Positions 19,535 through 31,718 of a stretch of DNA of 44,364 nucleotides are shown in pieces. Origin of the DNA: Bacteroidota bacterium (GTDB lineage Bacteria; Bacteroidota; Ignavibacteria; Kryptoniales; JAKASW01). The notes below the pieces were generated by a model, which had not been told where the DNA came from, ran no database searches, and saw nothing but the letters and a program-made list of their open reading frames with translations. Made by a program: the position numbers and the translations under genes. The first letter of the stretch is position 1. Every line of letters begins with the position of its first letter. Location: positions 1-44,364 of the forward strand of contig JAJZVO010000036.1 in the NCBI GenBank assembly GCA_021845665.1, in the 5' to 3' direction.

Positions 19535-19565
19535 CATCTTTATGTATCCTTTATGGAGCACACCA

Positions 19566-19617
19566 ATCTCTTTACGGCTCTTTGATTGCAGTGCAGGTGC
19601 GTGCCCGGCATATTTTA
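19566..19617 (+). promoter_or_regulatory. Putative KdpE-type operator/promoter of the barrel gene
   Basis: CTCTTT occurs at 19568-19573 and again at 19578-19583, one helical turn apart, followed by ATTGC and then CATATTTTA (19609-19617). The block 21669-21720 in front of kdpF has the same parts at the same spacing (32 bases between TTTACG and CATATTT). Ten-base direct repeats are the usual target of OmpR/PhoB-class response regulators such as KdpE. Upstream T-rich sequence (TTTATG..CTTTATG) is also partly shared. The regulator assignment is inference. Confidence 0.6.
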
Positions 19618-19623
19618 GGCACT

Positions 19624-20742
19624 ATGAAAAGAATCTCTGTGTGTTCAAGCATCTTTACGATCCTGTTTCTATCTGTATCTGCCCGCGCTGCCGATTCAAC
19701 TTCAACAGGCACTAAGTGTGGCATCATATGGAGCGGATTTCTCGATGTCTACTACAGCAAGAATTTTAATGACCCTTTGAACCAAATGAATCAGCTCCGC
19801 AATTTCGATATTTACGAGAACCAGTTCAGCCTAAACCTCGCTGAGCTTAGCGTTGAAGAGCAGGCAAAGCCGGTCGGCTTTCACATCGATCTCGGTTTCG
19901 GAACGGCCAATGACGTTGTCCAGGGATTACTAAATCCACAGACCGGGGCAGTTTCGCCTATGACCAGCACGATGGATTTGCTGGAGCAGGCATACCTCAG
20001 CGCGTTGATTCCAATAGGCTCAGGCCTGACGATCGACATAGGGAAATTCTCGACGCTCATGGGATATGAAGTGATCGAGACTCCGGGAAACTGGAATTAC
20101 AGCCGGTCACTCCTTTTTTCATGGGCTGTTCCTTACTATCACACCGGAATCCGTTTAACATATCCGGTGGAGAATAATTTCACTGCCACCCTCTGCCTGG
20201 TCAACGGCTGGAACAACGTCGTGGAAAATAATCGGTCGAAGACGGTTGCGCTGGGACTGAATTACTCTCCCTCTTCTGCTACCACTATTACACTCAACGG
20301 GATAAGCGGGTTTGAACAGCCCGAGGGCGTACCGTATGGAAAGACAGATGTCGGCGAGCTGATTGTTACTCAGAAGGTTGGTGAGAAACTTGCGCTTTCC
20401 TCCGATGCTGTTTATGGGAGGGAGCGTGTGGGAGGCGTACTCAATATATGGAAAGGTGTTGCTCTATATGCCAAGTACGATTTGAGCGAGGAGTCGGATA
20501 TTGCACTCCGCGGGGAAGTGTATTACGACCCGCAGGGATACACGACGGGCGTAACGTTCCCGAAAGCGACTTTCAAGGAGATTACCGCGACGTACGAATA
20601 CCGTCCCTGGAGCCACCTCATACTTATGCTCGAAGCGCGGGATGACTTCGCCAACGGCAAGACCTTCCTCTCTGCCGGTTCGCCGATTCCGGCAAGAACA
20701 TCGCAGCCGACGTTGTTGCTTGGAGCTATTGCAACATTCTGA
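19624..20742 (+). CDS. Outer-membrane beta-barrel protein, BBP2 (OmpL-like) type porin
   Basis: A 372-residue protein. ATG 19624 gives a clean signal peptide (KRISVCSSIFTILFLSVSARA, cleavage before ADS); the -10-like box at 19609-19617 implies a very short leader. The mature part has the BBP2 pattern: GFLDVYYSKNFNDP near the N-terminus, LNLAELSVEEQAKPVGFHIDLGFG, YLSALIPIGSGLTIDIGKFSTLMGYEVIETPGNWNYSRSLLFSWAVPYYHTGIRLTYP, alternating beta strands, and a last strand ending in the aromatic QPTLLLGAIATF. Barrel proteins of this kind are often encoded in or beside kdp operons of Bacteroidota, and the shared upstream block supports a role in potassium entry across the outer membrane. That role is inference. 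Confidence 0.8.
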   Translation: MKRISVCSSIFTILFLSVSARAADSTSTGTKCGIIWSGFLDVYYSKNFNDPLNQMNQLRNFDIYENQFSLNLAELSVEEQAKPVGFHIDLGFGTANDVVQGLLNPQTGAVSPMTSTMDLLEQAYLSALIPIGSGLTIDIGKFSTLMGYEVIETPGNWNYSRSLLFSWAVPYYHTGIRLTYPVENNFTATLCLVNGWNNVVENNRSKTVALGLNYSPSSATTITLNGISGFEQPEGVPYGKTDVGELIVTQKVGEKLALSSDAVYGRERVGGVLNIWKGVALYAKYDLSEESDIALRGEVYYDPQGYTTGVTFPKATFKEITATYEYRPWSHLILMLEARDDFANGKTFLSAGSPIPARTSQPTLLLGAIATF

Positions 20743-20854
20743 GCTTGCTGGACTGATCACGCCCCGACAAGGCTGCCGATTTATAATTCGGGTTGATATT
20801 TAGTGGCGACGCAGATAGATTTATCTAAGATGTTTGGAAGGAAAAGGTGAACAC

Positions 20855-21529
20855 TTGAAGTATCCCGCGGCAAAAATGTGGTTCGGCCTTGTGGTCGCCT
20901 TTATTGTGATTGCTTTGGCGGAATTCCTATCGGCCGGGACTCTGAACTATTGGCAAGGGTGGCTCTATTTAGGAGTTGGAGTAGTCTCGAGTGTTCTTCT
21001 GACTTTGTATATAGTGAAAGACCCGGCCTTTCTCGAAAGACGAACGAAATTTGGGCCTGCTTCAGAGGAGCGGCCTGCACAGAAGGTCATAGTTGCTTTC
21101 GCAGGAATTCCTGTCATCGGTGCGTTCATCGTTCCGGGGCTCGATCGGCGCTTCGGATGGTCGAGTGTGCCGCCATGGCTTTCCATTTTCGGTGATGTCC
21201 TGATAATGGCAAGCATTTGGATGGTGTATCGGGTGTTCAAAGAAAACTCGTTTGGCTCCGCGACTGTGGAGGTGGACGTGGACCAGAAAGTCATCTCAAC
21301 CGGTCCATATTCGGTCGTACGGAACCCGATGTATGCGAGCGCGGCTTTGTACTTTGTGGGATTGTCTTTGGCGCTTGGATCATACTGGGGGCTCATCGCT
21401 GCCTTCCTCACAATTCTCGGCCTTGTCTGGCGGCTTTTAGACGAAGAGCGATTTCTCTCAGAGATCCTTCCCGGCTATAAAGAGTACTGCTCGAAAGTGC
21501 GTTGGCACCTGATCCCTGGGATATTCTAG
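20855..21529 (+). CDS. Isoprenylcysteine carboxyl methyltransferase (ICMT)-like membrane protein
   Basis: About 224 residues from TTG 20855, which has AAAGGTGA directly before it; TTG 20834 is a longer alternative. The N-terminal half has four hydrophobic segments (MWFGLVVAFIVIALAEFL, GWLYLGVGVVSSVLLTLYIV, VIVAFAGIPVIGAFIVPG, LSIFGDVLIMASIWMVYRVF). The C-terminal half carries the SAM-binding ICMT/PEMT motif VISTGPYSVVRNPMYASA and LLDEERFLSEILPGYKEYCSKV with the catalytic-type His replaced by the usual bacterial pattern. Bacterial members are mostly unstudied methyltransferases. It lies between the barrel gene and kdpF on the same strand, 112 bases behind the former; its link to potassium is not evident. 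Confidence 0.8.
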   Translation: MKYPAAKMWFGLVVAFIVIALAEFLSAGTLNYWQGWLYLGVGVVSSVLLTLYIVKDPAFLERRTKFGPASEERPAQKVIVAFAGIPVIGAFIVPGLDRRFGWSSVPPWLSIFGDVLIMASIWMVYRVFKENSFGSATVEVDVDQKVISTGPYSVVRNPMYASAALYFVGLSLALGSYWGLIAAFLTILGLVWRLLDEERFLSEILPGYKEYCSKVRWHLIPGIF

Positions 21530-21668
21530 ATGCCGGGCCGAAAACCCGCTGCAAAACTATTTAACCACAAAGCGTCCTGTTCGCCGTTTTCAGGCAAATT
21601 CCGAACTTTCAGGTTCGAGCGTGAGTCTTTTTCTTCCCGCTTTTATATTTTCCTTATAACTATCGTCC

Positions 21669-21720
21669 ATCTCTTTACGACTCCTTAATTGCCGCCGCGC
21701 CGCACTCCTGCCATATTTAA
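21669..21720 (+). promoter_or_regulatory. Putative KdpE operator/promoter of the kdp operon
   Basis: CTCTTT (21671-21676) and CTCCTT (21681-21686) form a 10-bp-spaced direct repeat inside ATCTCTTTACGACTCCTTAA, and CATATTTAA lies at 21712-21720. The arrangement equals that at 19566-19617. The kdpF start is 28 bases downstream. Confidence 0.65.
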
Positions 21721-21748: not shown

Positions 21749-21826
21749 ATGATAATCGGACTTCTAATCTCGATAGGTCTTTTGGTGTACCTGGTTTATA
21801 CCCTGATTAAGCCGGAGAAATTCTGA
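21749..21826 (+). CDS. kdpF: Potassium-transporting ATPase small subunit KdpF
   Basis: A 25-residue peptide reading MIIGLLISIGLLVYLVYTLI followed by KPEKF: one membrane segment and the short KPEKF tail typical of KdpF. It is directly followed by kdpA, whose ATG overlaps its stop (TGATG at 21824-21828). KdpF stabilises the KdpFABC complex in the inner membrane. GAGG at 21733-21736 may serve as ribosome binding site. Confidence 0.9.
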   Translation: MIIGLLISIGLLVYLVYTLIKPEKF

Positions 21827-23541
21827 TGCTCATCGCGACGTTTGGTATATTCGGCATGCGCGACGTTTTGCAGATCGGCGTGTTCCTGATCGCTTTGATC
21901 GTGCTTACCCCGCTGCTCGGTTCGTTCATGGCGAAAGCGCTGAACGGCGAAAGGAATTTTCTTACGCCCATCTTCGGCGGTTTGGAGAGATCTTTCTACA
22001 GAATTTGCCGGATCGACCCTGAACAGGAGATGGATTGGAAAGAGTACCTTCTCGCGGTCATCGCTTTCAGCCTTGTCGGCCTGGTCGTGCTCTGGCTCCT
22101 CCAGGTGACTCAGGCTTACCTTCCGCTGAACCCGCAACATCTCCCTAATGTGTCGTGGGATCTCGCGTTCAACACAGCGGTCAGCTTCATGACAAACACG
22201 AACTGGCAGTCTTACGCCGGCGAAACGACGCTGAGCTATTTCGTTCAGATGGCCGGACTCACAGTCCATAATTTCGTCAGCGCTGCGGCAGGCATGGCGG
22301 TACTTCTCGCACTCGTCCGTGGGATCACCCGGAAGTCGAAGGAAGGTCTCGGAAATTTCTGGGCCGACCTTGTTCGCATGACGCTGTATGTTCTTCTTCC
22401 GCTTTCGGTCATACTCACCCTGGTGCTTGTCGGTCAGGGAACGGTGCAGACTCTATCGGGCTATGCTCACGCCACGACTCTCGAAGGCCAGAAGCAGGTG
22501 ATAGCCGTCGGACCCGCAGCATCGCAGATTGCGATCAAACAATTAGGCACGAACGGCGGCGGCTTCTTTAACGCAAACAGCGCGCACCCGTTCGAGAACC
22601 CGACCCCGCTGACCAATTTCCTGGAGCTGCTGTCGATTATTCTCATCGCTTCCGCCAGTGTTTACATGTACGGTAAGATGGTCGGGTCGACGCGCGAGGG
22701 CTGGGTGATCTGGGGAGTCATGCTCTCAGTATTTTGCATCATGCTGACGTTCTCACTTTACTCTGAATACAGCTTCCATCCTCCCTATGTGACGGCTCCA
22801 TCGATGGAGGGGAAGGAGACACGATTCGGGAACACGAACAGCATATTGTGGGAGGTTACCACAACGGTAACTTCAAACGGCTCCGTGAACTCGATGCACG
22901 ACAGCCTAACCCCGCTTTCAGGCATGGTAGGAATTGTCGACATGATGTTCGGCGAAGTTATTTTCGGCGGCATCGGTTCCGGACTTGCGAGCATGCTCCT
23001 TTTCGTCCTGCTGACTGTATTCATCGCGGGTCTTATGGTCGGTAGGACGCCGGAATACCTGGGGAAGAAAATCGAAGCCTACGAGGTGAAGATGTCGGTC
23101 ATCGGTGTCCTCGCTCCCGGTGCGGCGATACTGATATTCACTGCGATTGCATCAATTACAAAGGTCGGGTTATCCTCTTTGGGAAATAACGGCCCTCATG
23201 GCCTCTCCGAAATTCTATATGCGTTTACTTCCGGTGCGGCCAACAACGGGAGTGCATTCGCCGGACTGAATGCGAATACCGTGTTCTACAATGTCACGCT
23301 TGGAATCGACATGCTCATCGGGAGGTTTGTGCCGATAGCCGCTTATCTATCCGTGGCCGGCAGTCTCGCGAAGAAGAAAGCAGTGCCACCGTCAGCGGGT
23401 ACTTTCCCGACCGACTCCACACTCTTTGGCGTGCTTTTAGTCGGCGTGATAATAATAGTCGCGGCGCTTACCTTCTTCCCGGTTCTCGCACTCGGCCCGA
23501 TAGTGGAGCACTTCCTGATGCTGGCGGGAAAAACGTTTTAG
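21826..23541 (+). CDS. kdpA: Potassium-transporting ATPase channel subunit KdpA
   Basis: A 571-residue protein of normal length. It has about ten membrane segments and the four selectivity-filter regions of the SKT superfamily: NTNWQSYAGE, LGTNGGGFFNANSAHPFENPTPLTN, TVTSNGSVNSMHDSLTPLSG and FTSGAANNGSAFAGL. KdpA binds potassium on the outside and passes it through the inter-subunit tunnel to KdpB. Some residues before MRDVLQIG might not be translated if the later ATG is used. It follows kdpF with a one-base overlap. A 255-base gap separates it from kdpB, which is unusual for this operon. Confidence 0.97.
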   Translation: MLIATFGIFGMRDVLQIGVFLIALIVLTPLLGSFMAKALNGERNFLTPIFGGLERSFYRICRIDPEQEMDWKEYLLAVIAFSLVGLVVLWLLQVTQAYLPLNPQHLPNVSWDLAFNTAVSFMTNTNWQSYAGETTLSYFVQMAGLTVHNFVSAAAGMAVLLALVRGITRKSKEGLGNFWADLVRMTLYVLLPLSVILTLVLVGQGTVQTLSGYAHATTLEGQKQVIAVGPAASQIAIKQLGTNGGGFFNANSAHPFENPTPLTNFLELLSIILIASASVYMYGKMVGSTREGWVIWGVMLSVFCIMLTFSLYSEYSFHPPYVTAPSMEGKETRFGNTNSILWEVTTTVTSNGSVNSMHDSLTPLSGMVGIVDMMFGEVIFGGIGSGLASMLLFVLLTVFIAGLMVGRTPEYLGKKIEAYEVKMSVIGVLAPGAAILIFTAIASITKVGLSSLGNNGPHGLSEILYAFTSGAANNGSAFAGLNANTVFYNVTLGIDMLIGRFVPIAAYLSVAGSLAKKKAVPPSAGTFPTDSTLFGVLLVGVIIIVAALTFFPVLALGPIVEHFLMLAGKTF

Positions 23542-23796: not shown

Positions 23797-25899
23797 ATGG
23801 ACAAGAAATCAGATTATAGACTAGCATCGACGTTCGACAGAAAAATAGTTGTTCAGGCGCTGGTGGATTCGGTGAAGAAATTGAATCCGAAAACGCTTGT
23901 CAGGAATCCTGTAATGTTCGTCGTCGAAGTGGTCGCGCTTATCTCCACTTATATCGTGATTCGCGAGATCGCGATCGGCCGCGAGTCGCTCTTCAACATA
24001 CAGATAACTCTGTGGCTGTGGATCACCGTTCTCTTCGCCAATTTTGCCGAGGCGATTGCCGAAGGGCGAGGGAAAGCGCAAGCAGAGGCGCTGAGAAAGG
24101 CAAGATCCGAAACGACCGCCAGGAGAATCGAAGACGGCAAGGAAACTAAAGTAAATGCCCTCGATTTGAAGAAGGGCGACATCGTCGTTTGCGAAGCGGG
24201 CGATGTAATACCCGTCGATGGAGTTGTCATAGAAGGTATCGCGAGCGTTGACGAGTCGGCAATAACCGGCGAGTCGGCCCCGGTCATACGCGAGAGCGGT
24301 GAGGAGAGAAGTGCGGTGACCGGCGGCACAAGAGTGCTCAGCGACCGCATAGTCGTACGGGTTACCGCCGAACCGGGCGGGACTTTCATGGACAAGATTA
24401 TCGGTCTCGTCGAAGGGGCTAAGCGCCAGAAGACACCGAATGAAATAGCGTTGACGATACTCCTTTCGGCGCTGACTATCGTGTTCCTTCTTGCAGTTTC
24501 GACCTTTCCTGCATTCATGATGTACAGCGGAAAGGCATCGGGGATTTCCGTAAGGCCATATATAACTCTTCCGATTCTCGCGTCGCTCCTGGTTTGTCTC
24601 ATTCCTACGACGATTGGTGGTCTCCTCAGTGCAATCGGGATCAGTGGTATGGACCGGCTGATCAGGAAGAACGTTATCGCGACCAGTGGACGGGCTGCAG
24701 AGGCGGCCGGAGACGTCGACGTCCTCCTCCTCGATAAGACCGGCACCATAACTCTCGGGAACAGGATGGCGAGCGACTTCGTACCCGCCCCCGGGATCCC
24801 AGTCGAGCGCCTCGCGGATGCGGCGCAGCTCTCCTCGGTCGCAGATGAAACCCCGGAGGGAAGATCAATAGTGGTTCTCGCGAAGGAGAAGTACGGAATG
24901 CGGGCGAAGAAGGTGCGGGACGTCGGCGCTACGTTCATACCATTTTCGGCGCAAACGAAGATGAGTGGCGTGGAAATCCCTGCAACCGATGGGCTCGGGC
25001 CGCGCTCTATAAGGAAAGGATCGGGAGAGGCGATAAAAAAGTATGTGACGGAACTGGGAAAGAACTTCCCGCAGTCGGTGCAGAAGAATCTTGAAGAAAT
25101 AGCCCGAGCGGGCTCCACACCGCTCGTCGTCGTCGAGAACGGAGACGTGCTCGGAATCGTACAGCTGAAAGATATCGTGAAGGGTGGAATAAAGGAGAGA
25201 TTTGCCCAGCTCAGAAAGATGGGAATCAAAACCGTCATGATAACCGGCGACAATGCTTTGACAGCGGCGGCCATTGCGGCAGAAGCCGGTGTCGACGACT
25301 TCATTGCCGAGGCGAAGCCGGAAGATAAACTCGGCAGGATCCGCGCGGAGCAGGCCAGCGGACACCTTGTCGGAATGATCGGCGACGGTACGAACGATGC
25401 CCCCGCGCTCGCACAGGCCGATGTCGGTATCGCCATGAACAGCGGAACGCAGGCAGCTCGGGAGGCTGGCAATATGGTCGACCTCGACAGCAACCCAACG
25501 AAGCTCATTGAAGTGGTGGAGACGGGGAAGAAGCTTCTCATGACTCGCGGCGCGCTTACGACCTTCAGCATCGCGAACGACGTGTCGAAATATTTCGCGA
25601 TAATACCTGCCATGACCGCGGCACTTTATGCTTTCGGCAAACCGGTCGGGCCGCTCGCGGCATTGAACATAATGCACCTGGGCTCACCCCAGAGCGCCAT
25701 ACTCAGTGCGGTCATCTTCAACGCGATAATCATTATCCTCCTCGTCCCCCTGGCGCTTAAAGGTGTAAAGTACAGACCGGTCGGTGCCAGTGCAGTGTTA
25801 AGAAGGAATCTCCTTATCTACGGCCTCGGCGGACTCGTAGCGCCGTTCATAGGAATCAAACTCATAGACATGCTGATCAACGCTCTCAAGATTGTTTGA
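23797..25899 (+). CDS. kdpB: Potassium-transporting P-type ATPase subunit KdpB
   Basis: A 700-residue protein. All motifs of an active enzyme are present: [11 protein letters not shown] at the N-terminus, [16 protein letters not shown], the actuator-domain loop [25 protein letters not shown] in membrane helix 4, the phosphorylation site DKTGTIT with D313, nucleotide-domain sequence including FSAQTKMSG and [21 protein letters not shown], and the hinge [19 protein letters not shown] (G529-D534). D595 and K598 in [13 protein letters not shown] are the membrane-helix-5 charges that link transport to ATP use. It is the energising subunit of KdpFABC. The comparison with the second KdpB-like protein downstream makes its intact motifs useful as a reference. 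Confidence 0.97.
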
Positions 25900-25909
25900 T
25901 GGTGACAAA

Positions 25910-26485
25910 ATGAAAACGCATCTTTGGAATTCATTAAAAATGCTTCTCGTGATGACTGTCTTCACTGGACTCATTTATCCGCTCGTGATGACTGCGATAG
26001 CTCAAATAGTCTTTCCGAAGCAGGCGAACGGGAGCATGATCGGGATAAACGGCAAGCTCGTCGGTTCGAAGCTGATAGGACAGAATTTCACCAGCGACAA
26101 ATATTTCTGGCCGCGTCCTTCGGCGATCGGTTATAATCCGCTGCCTTCCGGAGGGAGCAACTACGGTCCGACGAGCGACACATTGAAAAAGCTGGTGGAA
26201 ATGAGGAGGAGAGAATTTATCCGGCTGAACGGCCTTCCAGCGAACGCGAATGTTCCGCCGGACATGCTTTACGCATCTGGCAGCGGTCTTGATCCGGACA
26301 TCAGCCCCGAGTCGGCAGAGCTCCAAATCGATCGCGTCGCCCGCGCGAGAGACTTTGACAGCCTGCAGACCGCGGCGTTACGGAAACTTGTGAAGTCTCA
26401 CATAGAAAAACCTCAGCTTGGTTTCCTGGGAGATCCGAGAGTCAATGTTCTTGAACTTAACATCGCGCTGGACTCGCTTCGCTGA
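25910..26485 (+). CDS. kdpC: Potassium-transporting ATPase subunit KdpC
   Basis: A 191-residue protein starting at ATG 25910, ten bases after the kdpB stop, with GGTGA before it. One N-terminal membrane segment (LLVMTVFTGLIYPLVMTAIAQIVFP) is followed by the periplasmic domain with the family blocks NGSMIG, GSKLIGQNFTSDKYFWPRPSAIGYNPLPSGGSNYGPTS, GSGLDPDISPESAELQIDRVARAR, and the ending RVNVLELNIALD. It is a full-length, standard KdpC, which stabilises the complex. The pseudo-KdpB gene begins 16 bases beyond its stop. Confidence 0.96.
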   Translation: MKTHLWNSLKMLLVMTVFTGLIYPLVMTAIAQIVFPKQANGSMIGINGKLVGSKLIGQNFTSDKYFWPRPSAIGYNPLPSGGSNYGPTSDTLKKLVEMRRREFIRLNGLPANANVPPDMLYASGSGLDPDISPESAELQIDRVARARDFDSLQTAALRKLVKSHIEKPQLGFLGDPRVNVLELNIALDSLR

Positions 26486-26501
26486 AACGTTCGCGGGGAA
26501 A

Positions 26502-28196
26502 ATGAAACGAATCGTTGCGGAGTGCCTGTCCGGACTGACTCCCGGGAAAGTAGCAGGCGACCCTGTCCGGCTTGCTCTTCTGTTAGGCGCGGTAGCATCT
26601 ACGGCCTCCCTTGTCTTTACTTCAAAGCATTTAACGGGTTTCAATGTCGCTTTGACTTTTCTGATCTGGCTTATTCTATCTGAGACAATTGTTTCGCACG
26701 CCCTTGTGAAAATACATTCAGGCGTATCCGTAAACGGAACAGCCCGTGGTGCCAATTTGCCGTTGGCACGGAAGCTCGTTAATGGGCTTGAGGATCAAGT
26801 CCCGGTTAGCTCACTCCGAAATGGCGATCTGGTGTTATGTGAGACTAATGAATTGATACCTGCGGACGGTGTAATCGTCCAGGGAACGGCCATTGTCGAT
26901 GAATCGGCGATTACTGGTCAGTCCCCGCCGGTACTGCGCGAAAGCGGAGGAGGTGGGAGTGCAGTGTTCGCCAAGACGACGGTGCTTGGGGGCCGAATCA
27001 TAGTTAGTGTGACCGCGAAAGAACGGAAAGTTGTTATCGACCCAGTAGCTTCGGCCGTCGAGAGAATAAAATACCAGATGACATCGGATGAAAGGAAAAT
27101 GGCCATTCCTCTCTGGCTCCTGGTTGTCGGCTTCTCGGTCGCGTTCGTGGCACTCCCGTTTCTTACAGTTGACAGGATGAATTCGGCTGAATATTTTATG
27201 AGGGCCCTGATGAAAACGCCGGCGGTCATCTCCATCCTGGTATGTGCCCTCCCGCTGACAGCTGCAGAACTTCTAAATATCGCCGCCCTGTGCGCGGTGT
27301 CTCGCCTTGTGCGGAAGAAGATAATTCCTGCGAGCATGAATGCCGTAGAGATTTCCGGGCTTGTGGATGTACTCCTGCTCGATGAGGAGGAAGTGATAGC
27401 ATTCAACAGGCAAAGTGCGAAAGGGAGTGTGATGAGCAATGAAGCCGTGTCCGATGATGATTGCGACGGAAGCGATTATCAAAGTGCAGTCCGGTTATTT
27501 CCTTCGGAGAAAATTCACGAACTCGGATTGAGAACCGTGCTTTCGGCCGACTCGGACCGAGGGGAAGGGTTTGCCGCGGCGATAGGAGCCGTAAGCTGCT
27601 TATCCGGCGGGAGACCGGAAAACAAGCTCGCGACAATCCAAAGCGAGCGTTCGTCCGGCGCTATAGTGGCCGTCGTTGGAGATCACGATGACATCGCGCC
27701 TCTGGCAAGGGATGCGAATCTCTGTTTCATAGTCGACGGCGGTGCAGAGGTGCCGGACGGAAATCCGAATTCCATCGGACTGAACGGAAGGCCGAACAGG
27801 CTGATAAACGCAATTGAGACAGGCAGACGTCTGTGCCAGGTTGAAAACCGGCTTACTCATTTTTCAGCTGGCGTGACCTTGTCAATGGCTCTTCTCTCTC
27901 TGTTTCCTCTTCTCGCGACATTATGTGGGAGCAGGGAAGTCGCATCCATCTCTCCATATCTGAATTTCCTTGGACTGTCGTCGGCACATGCGGCAATATT
28001 AGATATGTCGGTCTTTACGGCAATCTCGTTCGCCACGCTTTGTTCCATGACCGCAAGATCTCTAAACGGCAGCGCTTTCAGGTCGGGACTCCTAACCAAT
28101 GCGGACCCAAGTCTGATCGCAACGGCTGGATTCGTCGCCCCGTTGGTCACCGTGAAGATGATAGATTTGATCTTCGTTGCTTTCAGATTAATCTAA
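26502..28196 (+). CDS. KdpB-like pseudo-ATPase lacking all catalytic motifs
   Basis: A 564-residue protein. ATG 26502 follows GGGGAA and the kdpC stop; a TTG at 26418 would overlap kdpC and is less likely. It aligns to KdpB end to end: seven hydrophobic segments in the same order, [23 protein letters not shown] (Kdp[21 protein letters not shown]), LVCALPLTAAELLNIAALCAVSRLVRKK (Kdp[14 protein letters not shown]..), VDVLLLD, ETGRRL, and the ending GFVAPLVTVKMIDLIF. Yet TGES is TGQS (Q140), DKTGT is D294-[12 protein letters not shown] is GDHDDIAP (393-400), TGD is SAD, the helix-5 D and K are gone, and roughly 100 residues of nucleotide-binding domain are missing. It cannot be an ion-pumping ATPase. 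The frame is open throughout, so a non-catalytic role in the Kdp complex or its control is likely. Confidence 0.85.
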   Translation: MKRIVAECLSGLTPGKVAGDPVRLALLLGAVASTASLVFTSKHLTGFNVALTFLIWLILSETIVSHALVKIHSGVSVNGTARGANLPLARKLVNGLEDQVPVSSLRNGDLVLCETNELIPADGVIVQGTAIVDESAITGQSPPVLRESGGGGSAVFAKTTVLGGRIIVSVTAKERKVVIDPVASAVERIKYQMTSDERKMAIPLWLLVVGFSVAFVALPFLTVDRMNSAEYFMRALMKTPAVISILVCALPLTAAELLNIAALCAVSRLVRKKIIPASMNAVEISGLVDVLLLDEEEVIAFNRQSAKGSVMSNEAVSDDDCDGSDYQSAVRLFPSEKIHELGLRTVLSADSDRGEGFAAAIGAVSCLSGGRPENKLATIQSERSSGAIVAVVGDHDDIAPLARDANLCFIVDGGAEVPDGNPNSIGLNGRPNRLINAIETGRRLCQVENRLTHFSAGVTLSMALLSLFPLLATLCGSREVASISPYLNFLGLSSAHAAILDMSVFTAISFATLCSMTARSLNGSAFRSGLLTNADPSLIATAGFVAPLVTVKMIDLIFVAFRLI

Positions 28197-28347: not shown

Positions 28348-31035
28348 ATGTCAGAGTATGAAGATAACAGACCGAATCCCGACGAACTTCTGAAGGCCTT
28401 GAAGAAGGAGGATGAAAGAAGCGGAAAAGGCAAGCTCAAGATATTCTTCGGGATGTGCGCAGGCGTCGGGAAGACGTACGCCATGCTCAGTGAAGCAAGA
28501 GACGCGGTGGCCAAGGGCGTAGACGTTGTCGTGGGATATATAGAAACTCACAAGCGGATGGAGACGGCGGAGCTGGTCCTGGGCCTGGAGGTGGTTCCAC
28601 GAAAGAAGGTCGAGTACCGAGGCGCGGAACTGGAGGAGATGGATATCGATGCTATCCTTGCGCGGAAGCCGAAGGTTGTTCTGGTCGACGAGCTCGCTCA
28701 CACGAATGCACCGGGGAGCCGTCATGCCCGCCGCTATCAGGATGTGCAGGAAATACTTGCCAACGGGATAGATGTTTATACGACACTGAATGTCCAGCAT
28801 CTCGAAAGCAGGGCCGATACAGTTGCCCAAATTTCTGGCAGTATAGTCAGGGAAACGGTGCCCGATTCAATCTTCGACGCCGCCGATGAGATCAAGATAA
28901 TCGACATATCGCCCGACGAACTTCTCAAGCGGCTGAAGGAAGGAAAAGTCTATGCGGCTGAGCGCTCCAGACAGGCCGTCGAGAACTTCTTCAAGGAGGG
29001 GAATCTTTCGGCCTTACGCGAAATGTCTTTGAGGGTGACGGCAGAGCGCGTGGATCACCAGATTCGTGAATACAGACGCGGACAGAATATCTCCAGTCCC
29101 TGGAAGTCCGGTCAGAGACTCGTCGTGGCCATAAGCCCGAGTCCGCATTCAGTCTCCGTTATCAGGTGGGCGAGGCGAGTCTCTCACACGATGGACGCGA
29201 CTTGGGTTGTTGTTTACGTAGACAGGTCGGACAAGCTATCCGAGGAACAGCGCGACCAGCTTGCGAAGAATATAAAGCTGGCGAGGGAGCTGGGCGCAGA
29301 GGTCGTGACGACGTCCGGAGTCGATATCGCGAACGCGCTTATTCGTGTCGCGCGCGAACAGAACGCCAGCCAGATCCTTGTGGGCAAACCTGATCGCTAC
29401 ATCTTCTCCCGGGCTGCGCGGCTTATAGACAACCTGATGCAAAGAAGCACCGACCTCGATATCTACATAGTCGGTCAGGAGGGGAGCCGCTCAAAGCGGA
29501 AAATCCAATCCGTCATTCCCTGGCCGCAGTCGAGTGCGGTTCAGTATCTTACAGCCGTTCTGCTTGTCCTTCTTGCGGCGATCGTAAGTTTTCCTTTCCA
29601 GGGTTATATCGGTTATAGGACCGTTTCGTTTATCCTCCTTCTTGTCGTGTCGCTTCTCCCGCTGAAGTTCGGGCCCGGGCCTACCGTATTGGCTGCTGCA
29701 TTTGGTGCCCTATCGTGGGACTTCCTCTTCATCCCGCCGCGCTTTACGTTCTCAATAGGGAACCTTGAGGACACGCTCCTTGCAGCCATGTTCTTCGTGG
29801 TAGCAACGGTGACGGGCGTCCTTTCCGCACGAGTGAGGAAGAGAGAGAAGATTATTCGTCAGCGCGAGGCGAGGACATCGGCACTGTTCGGCCTGACAAA
29901 GGATTTGTCTTCGGCTCATTCACAGGACGAGGTAATTACGACCGCCGTCTCGAACATCAAGAAGTATTTCGATGCAGATGTTGCCTTCATCCTCGGCGAT
30001 GCCGAAGGAGAGATGGCCAATACTCCTCACCCTGCCAGCTCCTTCAAGCCGGATGTGAAAGAGTCCAGTGTTGCTGCCTGGGTCTACTGGAATGAGAAGA
30101 AAGCCGGCAAGAATACGGATACGCTTCCTTCTGCCCACGCTACCTATTTCCCGATGTCCGGACCGCGCTATCCGCTCGGTGTCATCGGCGTGAAGTTTCC
30201 CGACGATGCGGAACTCTCTAACGACCAGGAGTCCCTCCTGGAAAATTTCATATCCCAGATCACTTCAGCTATTGAACGGGAGCTCTTGAACGATGTCAAC
30301 AGGAAATCAATTGTTGTTGCCGAATCGGAGCGTTTGTACAAGACTCTCTTCGACTCGATCTCCCATGAGTTCCGAACGCCCATCGCGACGATTCTGGGCG
30401 TGTCGGAGAATCTCCTCGGGCACGAGTCCGAACAGCGTACAGGCCTGAGGGAACAGAGCGTAAAAGAGATCCATGTCGCGGCCGAGAGGCTTAACAGGCT
30501 TGTAGCCAACCTGCTCGATATGACAAGGCTGGAATCCGGCATGATCCAGCCGAAACTCGATTGGTGCGATCTTCGGGATGTGCTCAATCATGCATTGAAG
30601 AATTTGGAAAGGGAGCTTGAAGGGCGCAATGTATCGGTAGACGTCTCGGATGATGTCCCGCTCATGAAGCTCGACTTCGGGCTTGTCGAGCAGGCGTTGA
30701 CAAATCTCATACATAACGCGGCGCTTCACACTCCTTCAGGCACCGGCATGATGATCAGATCGTATCTTGAAGAGGGGGAAACGTGTGTAATCTCGGTAGC
30801 CGACAATGGGCCGGGCCTTCCGCGCGAGGACATCAACAGAGTGTTCGAAAAATTCTACAGAGCCCAAAACGGAAAGTCAGGAGGTACAGGCCTCGGCCTG
30901 ACTATCGCCAAAGGTTTCGTTGAAGCTCACCACGGCACGATTACGGCGCGAAACCGTACCGAGGGCGGCGCGGAGTTCGTCATCAGGCTCCCCATAACTG
31001 AGACCGTGAGTAAAGACAGCGAGGAGACACTCTGA
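28348..31035 (+). CDS. kdpD: Potassium sensor histidine kinase KdpD
   Basis: An 895-residue protein with TGAGGTG before ATG 28348. The domain order is standard. An N-terminal KdpD domain with Walker A GMCAGVGKTYAML and VLVDELAHTNAPGSRH..RYQDVQEIL..GIDVYTTLNVQHLES comes first, then a universal-stress-like domain (about 250-370; VVAISPSPHSVSVIRWARR, GKPDRYIFSR), then four clustered membrane segments (about 395-500; YLTAVLLVLLAAIVSFPFQGY and onward). A GAF-like region, a HisKA domain with H673 in SISHEFRTPIATILG, and a HATPase with NLIHNAALHTPSG, DNGPGLP and GGTGLGLTIAKGFVEAH follow. It senses potassium or ionic stress and phosphorylates KdpE. Its stop overlaps the kdpE start. Confidence 0.97.
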   Translation: MSEYEDNRPNPDELLKALKKEDERSGKGKLKIFFGMCAGVGKTYAMLSEARDAVAKGVDVVVGYIETHKRMETAELVLGLEVVPRKKVEYRGAELEEMDIDAILARKPKVVLVDELAHTNAPGSRHARRYQDVQEILANGIDVYTTLNVQHLESRADTVAQISGSIVRETVPDSIFDAADEIKIIDISPDELLKRLKEGKVYAAERSRQAVENFFKEGNLSALREMSLRVTAERVDHQIREYRRGQNISSPWKSGQRLVVAISPSPHSVSVIRWARRVSHTMDATWVVVYVDRSDKLSEEQRDQLAKNIKLARELGAEVVTTSGVDIANALIRVAREQNASQILVGKPDRYIFSRAARLIDNLMQRSTDLDIYIVGQEGSRSKRKIQSVIPWPQSSAVQYLTAVLLVLLAAIVSFPFQGYIGYRTVSFILLLVVSLLPLKFGPGPTVLAAAFGALSWDFLFIPPRFTFSIGNLEDTLLAAMFFVVATVTGVLSARVRKREKIIRQREARTSALFGLTKDLSSAHSQDEVITTAVSNIKKYFDADVAFILGDAEGEMANTPHPASSFKPDVKESSVAAWVYWNEKKAGKNTDTLPSAHATYFPMSGPRYPLGVIGVKFPDDAELSNDQESLLENFISQITSAIERELLNDVNRKSIVVAESERLYKTLFDSISHEFRTPIATILGVSENLLGHESEQRTGLREQSVKEIHVAAERLNRLVANLLDMTRLESGMIQPKLDWCDLRDVLNHALKNLERELEGRNVSVDVSDDVPLMKLDFGLVEQALTNLIHNAALHTPSGTGMMIRSYLEEGETCVISVADNGPGLPREDINRVFEKFYRAQNGKSGGTGLGLTIAKGFVEAHHGTITARNRTEGGAEFVIRLPITETVSKDSEETL

Positions 31036-31718
31036 GCGAGAAACCGATTATACTCGTCATAGACGACGAGACACAGATACGCCGTCTGTTGGAGCTCACT
31101 CTCGAGTCGGATGGCTATTCAGTCCGTTTGGTCGGAGCGGGTAAAGAGGGAATTGCCAAAGCAGCATCAGAGCGGCCCGAGCTGATAATCCTCGATCTCG
31201 GTCTGCCGGACATCGACGGCGTCGAGGTCCTCAGGAAAATTCGCGATTGGTCTGAAGTTCCCGTGCTCGTCCTTTCGGTCCGCGACGCGGAAACCGATAT
31301 TGTGGCGTGTCTTGACGCCGGTGCCGACGATTATCTGACGAAGCCCTTCCGGACAGGCGAACTCCTCGCGCGTGTCCGCAACGCCCTGAGGCATCGTCCC
31401 TCCCAGCAGGATACAGCGGTATTCAGCGTGCACGACCTGCAGATCGATCTGACCGCGAGGACTGTAAAAAAAGGGAAGGAATACGTGAAGCTCACCGCAA
31501 CTGAGTATGCGCTCCTCTCGCTTTTTGTAAGGAATGCCGGGCGGGTTCTGACTCACAACTTCATTCTCGAACAGGTCTGGGGACCCGCATTTTCAGATGA
31601 GACGCAATATACACGGGTGTACGTCGGACAACTGCGGAAGAAGATCGAAGACGATCCTTCAAAACCGAAGATCATACTTACCGAATCGGGTATAGGTTAC
31701 AGGCTCAGTTCTGAGTAA
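31032..31718 (+). CDS. kdpE: Response regulator KdpE, apparently with a CTG start
   Basis: A protein of about 228 residues. The receiver domain has EKPIILVIDDETQIRRLLELTLE at the N-terminus (acidic pair DDE), phosphoacceptor D55 in LIILDLGLPDIDG, and YLTKPF with the conserved Lys. A C-terminal OmpR-type winged helix follows (LTATEYALLSLFVRNAGRVLTHNFILEQVWGP..YTRVYVGQLRKKIE). The first strand of the receiver lies upstream of any ATG, GTG or TTG. CTG 31032 sits five bases after GAGGAG (31021-31026) and overlaps the kdpD stop, so it is the best start candidate; starting at TTG 31089 would delete the active-site acidic residues. It should activate kdp and perhaps the barrel gene through the shared blocks. 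Confidence 0.92.
   Translation: MSEKPIILVIDDETQIRRLLELTLESDGYSVRLVGAGKEGIAKAASERPELIILDLGLPDIDGVEVLRKIRDWSEVPVLVLSVRDAETDIVACLDAGADDYLTKPFRTGELLARVRNALRHRPSQQDTAVFSVHDLQIDLTARTVKKGKEYVKLTATEYALLSLFVRNAGRVLTHNFILEQVWGPAFSDETQYTRVYVGQLRKKIEDDPSKPKIILTESGIGYRLSSE

Follow-up and report, generated by a model that had tools for sequence, protein, structure and literature searches.

Passage of potassium through the outer membrane is usually regarded as unregulated diffusion via general porins. On the porin genes ompF and ompC, the winged-helix response regulator OmpR occupies arrays of tandem half-site pairs. The E. coli response regulator KdpE recognizes TTTATA-N5-TTTACA in the kdpFABC operator, with a footprint from -72 to -50, and requires residues R193, R200 and T215 for DNA binding (PMC3264566). 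For Leptospirillum, a BBP2 porin gene that adjoins the kdp cluster has been described, with a suggested association with potassium regulation (PMC7231039). These half-sites and the kdp-BBP2 linkage are already known. Our literature search, in which most subscription papers were beyond reach, returned no report of a four-half-site array, of a KdpE-controlled porin or KdpE regulon in Bacteroidota, or of the use of a KdpE operator on an outer-membrane channel.

The stretch of DNA analyzed here (the window, 44,364 nucleotides from a Bacteroidota bacterium) carries a kdp operon preceded by a BBP2 porin gene. The features are listed in Table 1. As the first-pass annotation had stated, kdpE lies in the operon. 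Its product aligns with E. coli KdpE (4kny) over its length (E=1e-66), and R193, R200 and T215, mapped assuming a two-residue offset in the deposited 4kny chain, are all conserved. The kdpE frame contains no ATG, GTG or TTG before the receiver domain; it opens at a CTG that overlaps the kdpD stop codon (CTGA, 31032-31040). Between kdpC and kdpD lies a KdpB-like gene (26418-28196) that has LLDEEEVIAF in place of the phosphorylation motif DKTGT. Related paralogues are found in G004 (63%), G007 (78%) and probably G012, and none was seen in G002 or G009; the product is a conserved KdpB paralogue that is apparently inactive.

Table 1. Coordinates of genes, half-sites and promoter elements in the window.
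Feature	Position	Strand	Remarks
KdpE-type half-sites 1+2, porin promoter	19538..19555	+	CTTTATG-TATC-CTTTATG; 11-bp spacing; matches E. coli TTTATA-N5-TTTACA
Half-sites 3+4, porin promoter	19570..19586	+	CTTTACG-GCT-CTTTGAT; 10-bp spacing; the block of the first-pass annotation
Putative -33 element, porin promoter	19585..19588	+	ATTG; overlaps half-site 4; 20 nt to -7 element
Putative -7 element, porin promoter	19609..19616	+	CATATTTT; predicted +1 ~19621
BBP2 (OmpL-like) outer-membrane porin	19624..20742	+	Signal peptide; PF07642 E=9.9e-84
PEMT-type methyltransferase	20834..21529	+	PF04191; probably co-transcribed with the porin gene
KdpE-type half-sites 1+2, kdpF promoter	21641..21658	+	TTTTATA-TTTT-CCTTATA
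Half-sites 3+4, kdpF promoter	21673..21689	+	CTTTACG-ACT-CCTTAAT
Putative -33 element, kdpF promoter	21688..21691	+	ATTG
Putative -7 element, kdpF promoter	21712..21719	+	CATATTTA; predicted +1 ~21724
kdpF	21749..21826	+	MIIGLLISIGLLVYLVYTLIKPEKF
kdpA	21826..23541	+	PF03814 E=4.6e-242
kdpB and kdpC	23797..26485	+	
kdpD, sensor kinase	28348..31035	+	PF02702
kdpE, response regulator	31032..31718	+	Frame open from CTG at 31032

Two copies of a block are present where the first-pass annotation had located them, ATCTCTTTACGGCTCTTTGATTGC before the porin gene (19566-19589) and ATCTCTTTACGACTCCTTAATTGC before kdpF (21669-21692). Each contains CTCTTT/CTCYTT repeats spaced by 10 bases, with ATTGC after them. 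The block belongs to an array of 52 bases per promoter that comprises four half-sites of the type YTTTAYR at offsets 0, +11, +32 and approximately +42. The consensus common to both promoters reads YTTTAYR-N4-YYTTAYR-N14-CTTTACG-N3-CYTTRATTGC, followed by CATATTT at a fixed distance. The annotation had taken the 10-base repeats for the site of an OmpR-class regulator. They are real and form the second, promoter-proximal half-site pair, but the main KdpE-like element is the TTTAYR pair at 11-bp spacing in the partly shared, TTTAT-rich sequence upstream, which turns out to be the better half of the site. This first pair reads TTTATG-TATCC-TTTATG at 19539-19555 in the porin promoter and TTTATA-TTTTC-CTTATA at 21642-21658 in the kdpF promoter. 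Both promoters thus display the 6-bp, TTTAYA-like direct repeats with 5-bp spacing that characterize a KdpE operator; the deviations are a G for A at the last base of the porin copy and one T-to-C exchange in the second kdpF half-site. The two copies agree in 25/31 half-site columns and in 11/25 spacer positions, and their flanks in 28/120 positions upstream and 36/120 downstream (23-30%). Because identity is concentrated in the half-sites and not in the spacers or flanks, the pair of arrays is unlikely to represent a copied segment.

The array resembles the E. coli kdpFABC operator in half-site sequence, in its 11-bp repeat and in its place upstream of the kdp promoter, and the regulator shares the DNA-contact residues of E. 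coli KdpE. It differs in having four half-sites, in the overlap of the second pair with the -33 element and in the presence of a second copy before an outer-membrane porin unit. As in OmpR control of ompF and ompC, several tandem half-site pairs suited to a winged-helix response regulator precede a porin gene, but the regulator, the signal (potassium) and the porin family are different. As in Leptospirillum, a BBP2 porin gene is linked to kdp; there, however, the gene lies downstream of kdp and no operator is described in the passage concerned (PMC7231039), whereas here the porin unit stands apart from kdp and has a KdpE-type box to itself.

The CATATTT box had been placed 32 bases downstream of the block. 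Its offset is indeed identical in both copies, with CATATTTT starting at 19609 and CATATTTA at 21712, each 43 bases past the first base of the block; the value of 32 is not reproduced from the end of the block. We positioned the predicted +1 from the -7 box of Bacteroidota, for which the flavobacterial TAnnTTTG-type box covers -12 to -5 (PMC9723704). On this basis, the half-sites of both promoters start at approximately -83, -72, -51 and -41, the fourth merging into ATTG at approximately -33, and the 20-nt distance from ATTG to the -7 element is kept in nearly all aligned promoters. Leaders of the kdp units measure ~25 nt. In 7/9 porin units the first ATG, of either the porin or a P-II-like gene, lies only 15 nt past the C of CATATT (19609-19626 in the window), from which the messages of these units, including the porin mRNA of the window, should be leaderless or nearly so. 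Leaderless messages account for only 5.5% of those examined in F. psychrophilum (PMC9723704). A riboswitch is reported for B. thuringiensis kdp (PMC6488665). Here, an Rfam search revealed no RNA element at the site, and transcription is predicted to start downstream of the box, so that a riboswitch is not supported.

The array is specific within its own genome. With up to three mismatches allowed, a search of all 4.64 Mb finds the block at two places (reversed control, 0). The pattern YTTTAYR-N4-YYTTAYR-N14-CTTTACG has exactly two matches, the two promoters, in window and genome alike; shuffled windows gave 0.00 matches, or 0.02 with three mismatches. A position matrix trained on ten kdp promoters recovers porin promoters that are absent from its training set. 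The later sequence-only profile R1, built from 14 kdp promoters and no porin promoters, yielded 20 matches with E<0.05 over 13 genomes, every one at a kdp or kdp-linked porin promoter. In the own genome it found two sites (7e-14 and 1e-7; next best 0.21). The box precedes kdp in 12/12 genus genomes having kdp, and the kdp-less G008 (no KdpA) contains no R1 match below 0.37. Scored with the 14-promoter matrix, the box is also found before the porin unit in 9/9 genomes with a kdp-linked BBP2 porin. The scores are 45.4 (own), 45.6, 39.2, 36.4, 33.1, 28.8, 28.6, 19.3 (G002) and 13.5 (G006); the last two boxes are weak, and each of the nine scores exceeds every one of 1000 shuffles of the respective region. 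Ten further BBP2 genes from the genus all lack the box (0/10; coding-strand scores of -2.8 or less). The first-pass annotation had named two observations that would refute it, a common repeat before unrelated genes and absence of the block before kdpF in relatives. Neither was made: the block is no common repeat, and it recurs before kdpF in relatives.

Within the genus the box stays with its transcription unit, as seen from G007, G011 and G012, in which a P-II-like gene is inserted between box and porin, and from G003 and G004, in which the upstream neighbor of the unit is different and the box is retained. The three P-II-like genes (weak PF00543 matches; L033:9962-10351, L037:2619-2972 and L038:9614-10003) open their kdp-linked porin units, which suggests a connection between potassium uptake and a regulator of the P-II type. 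G011 harbors several kdp clusters, one of which has kdpA in two pieces yet an intact box (L037:4123-10503).

For a link with KdpE, we inspected the surroundings of kdp in a further 32 genomes, from other families of the class, excluding three loci cut by contig ends. At a cut-off score above 6, which was set after the scores were seen, the box is present in 18/21 loci with KdpE and in 0/8 without it (Fisher 3.8e-5). The eight KdpE-less loci have a shortened kdpD and no OmpR-type KdpE. Among the loci with KdpE, G140 and G158 keep only the first pair (18.2 and 17.4 versus a random 99th percentile of 13.5), and G155 has no recognizable box, first pair included. Over 197 class genomes, the strongest R1 matches beyond the genus lie before kdp (G075, G173, G137 and G049), and G183 has a strong match before kdpD-kdpE. 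Weak partial matches include G018, G140:C78 and G154; two in G123 fall inside coding sequence and are chance matches. The boxed kdpD-kdpE pair of G183 (L178:5320-7637) resides in a genome without a KdpA match and may reflect autoregulation of an orphan pair.

Many members of the class have BBP2 genes within or adjoining their kdp clusters. G041 and G190 carry the box ahead of a BBP2 gene located before kdpA, with a small ORF in between in G190. In G050 a PF13557 barrel preceded by a box is situated upstream of kdpA; G059 has two boxes, one ahead of such a barrel and another between barrel and kdpA. These KdpE-type boxes beside PF13557 (Phenol_MetA_deg) barrels adjoining kdp occur in another family of the class (L133, 8692 and 10082; L131, 6603). 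That barrels of an unrelated family take up this position too suggests that selection favors a partner for Kdp in the outer membrane.

The porin of the window matches PF07642 over its full length (281.9 bits versus a curated cut-off of 26.2). The structure model predicts a 16-strand barrel at moderate confidence (pLDDT 75.5); its Foldseek matches are general and substrate-specific porins, a likeness that does not settle selectivity. The methyltransferase gene is found in some relatives only (G003, G004 and G007). It is conceivable that the porin lets potassium cross the outer membrane and reach the pump.

Several other explanations of the shared sequence were weighed. A promoter for a special sigma factor common to both genes, in place of an activator site, would account for the ATTG and CATATTT elements that belong to it. 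What is conserved, however, is an array of direct repeats at helical spacing that extends from approximately -83 to -35 and matches KdpE half-sites. Strong matches to it are confined to kdp, to barrel genes linked with kdp and to kdpDE, and its presence follows that of KdpE; such a sigma-factor promoter is very improbable. Direct half-site repeats are widespread in the OmpR family (PMC3264566), and a different member, for example a PhoB- or RstA-like regulator, could in principle bind the array. We give this little credence, given that the half-site sequence fits KdpE, that the array is missing from all eight kdp loci without a linked KdpE and that it precedes kdpDE in G183. The two genes adjoin, as expected if a recent promoter duplication had left a non-functional copy before the porin gene. 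Against this stand the confinement of identity to the half-sites and the -7 box, with the flank values given above, and the retention of the porin-unit box in nine genomes despite P-II-like insertion or a changed upstream neighbor, which render such a duplication exceedingly unlikely.

A more serious alternative, compatible with the operator, concerns the barrel itself, which may be controlled by KdpE and yet be a general or nitrogen-type porin serving a wider adjustment, not potassium entry. The other BBP2 genes of the genus that were examined have as neighbors either a permease gene and glutamine-synthetase-like genes, or P-II and Amt-like genes (assigned by inspection only). The kdp-linked and the other BBP2 proteins cannot be told apart by net charge, three kdp-porin units contain P-II-like genes, and in Kuenenia a BBP2 gene is responsive to limiting ammonium (PMC7438415). 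The location of BBP2 genes inside or beside kdp operons in other lineages speaks against it, as does the Leptospirillum gene downstream of kdp (PMC7231039). We regard this role as somewhat less likely than not.

Taken together, the array with its geometry, conservation and specificity, its occurrence alongside KdpE, and the retention of the contact residues in KdpE are established at the level of sequence, and the shared block is very probably a KdpE operator on both the kdp operon and the porin unit. That KdpE controls both pump and porin, as proposed in the first-pass annotation, is well supported at the level of comparative genomics by the kdp-only profile, the KdpE co-distribution and the match to E. 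coli half-sites. Because the same four-part, KdpE-matching site precedes both, pump and outer-membrane pore are probably switched on together at low potassium. From established KdpDE biology we infer binding, activation and low-potassium co-induction as follows. KdpD would sense potassium limitation and give rise to phosphorylated KdpE, two dimers of which would occupy the four tandem half-sites. The first would sit on YTTTAYR-N4-YTTTAYR from approximately -83 to -66 and the second at approximately -51 to -35, overlapping the -33 element. Bound KdpE would then recruit polymerase to the ATTG-N20-CATATTT promoter of two units, the kdp operon from kdpF and the BBP2 porin gene together with the methyltransferase gene that follows; the porin unit of three relatives starts with the P-II-like gene.

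Tentatively, many Bacteroidota with KdpDE may share a single conserved KdpE operator in which four half-sites are fused to the -33 element. They may also have recruited outer-membrane barrels from the unrelated families BBP2 and PF13557 as channels that are induced by KdpE and dedicated to potassium entry, a generalization we hold to be possible rather than probable. If true, a KdpE-controlled porin would extend the potassium response to the outer membrane and offers a directly testable case. The defined operator permits the mapping of KdpE regulons across Bacteroidota.
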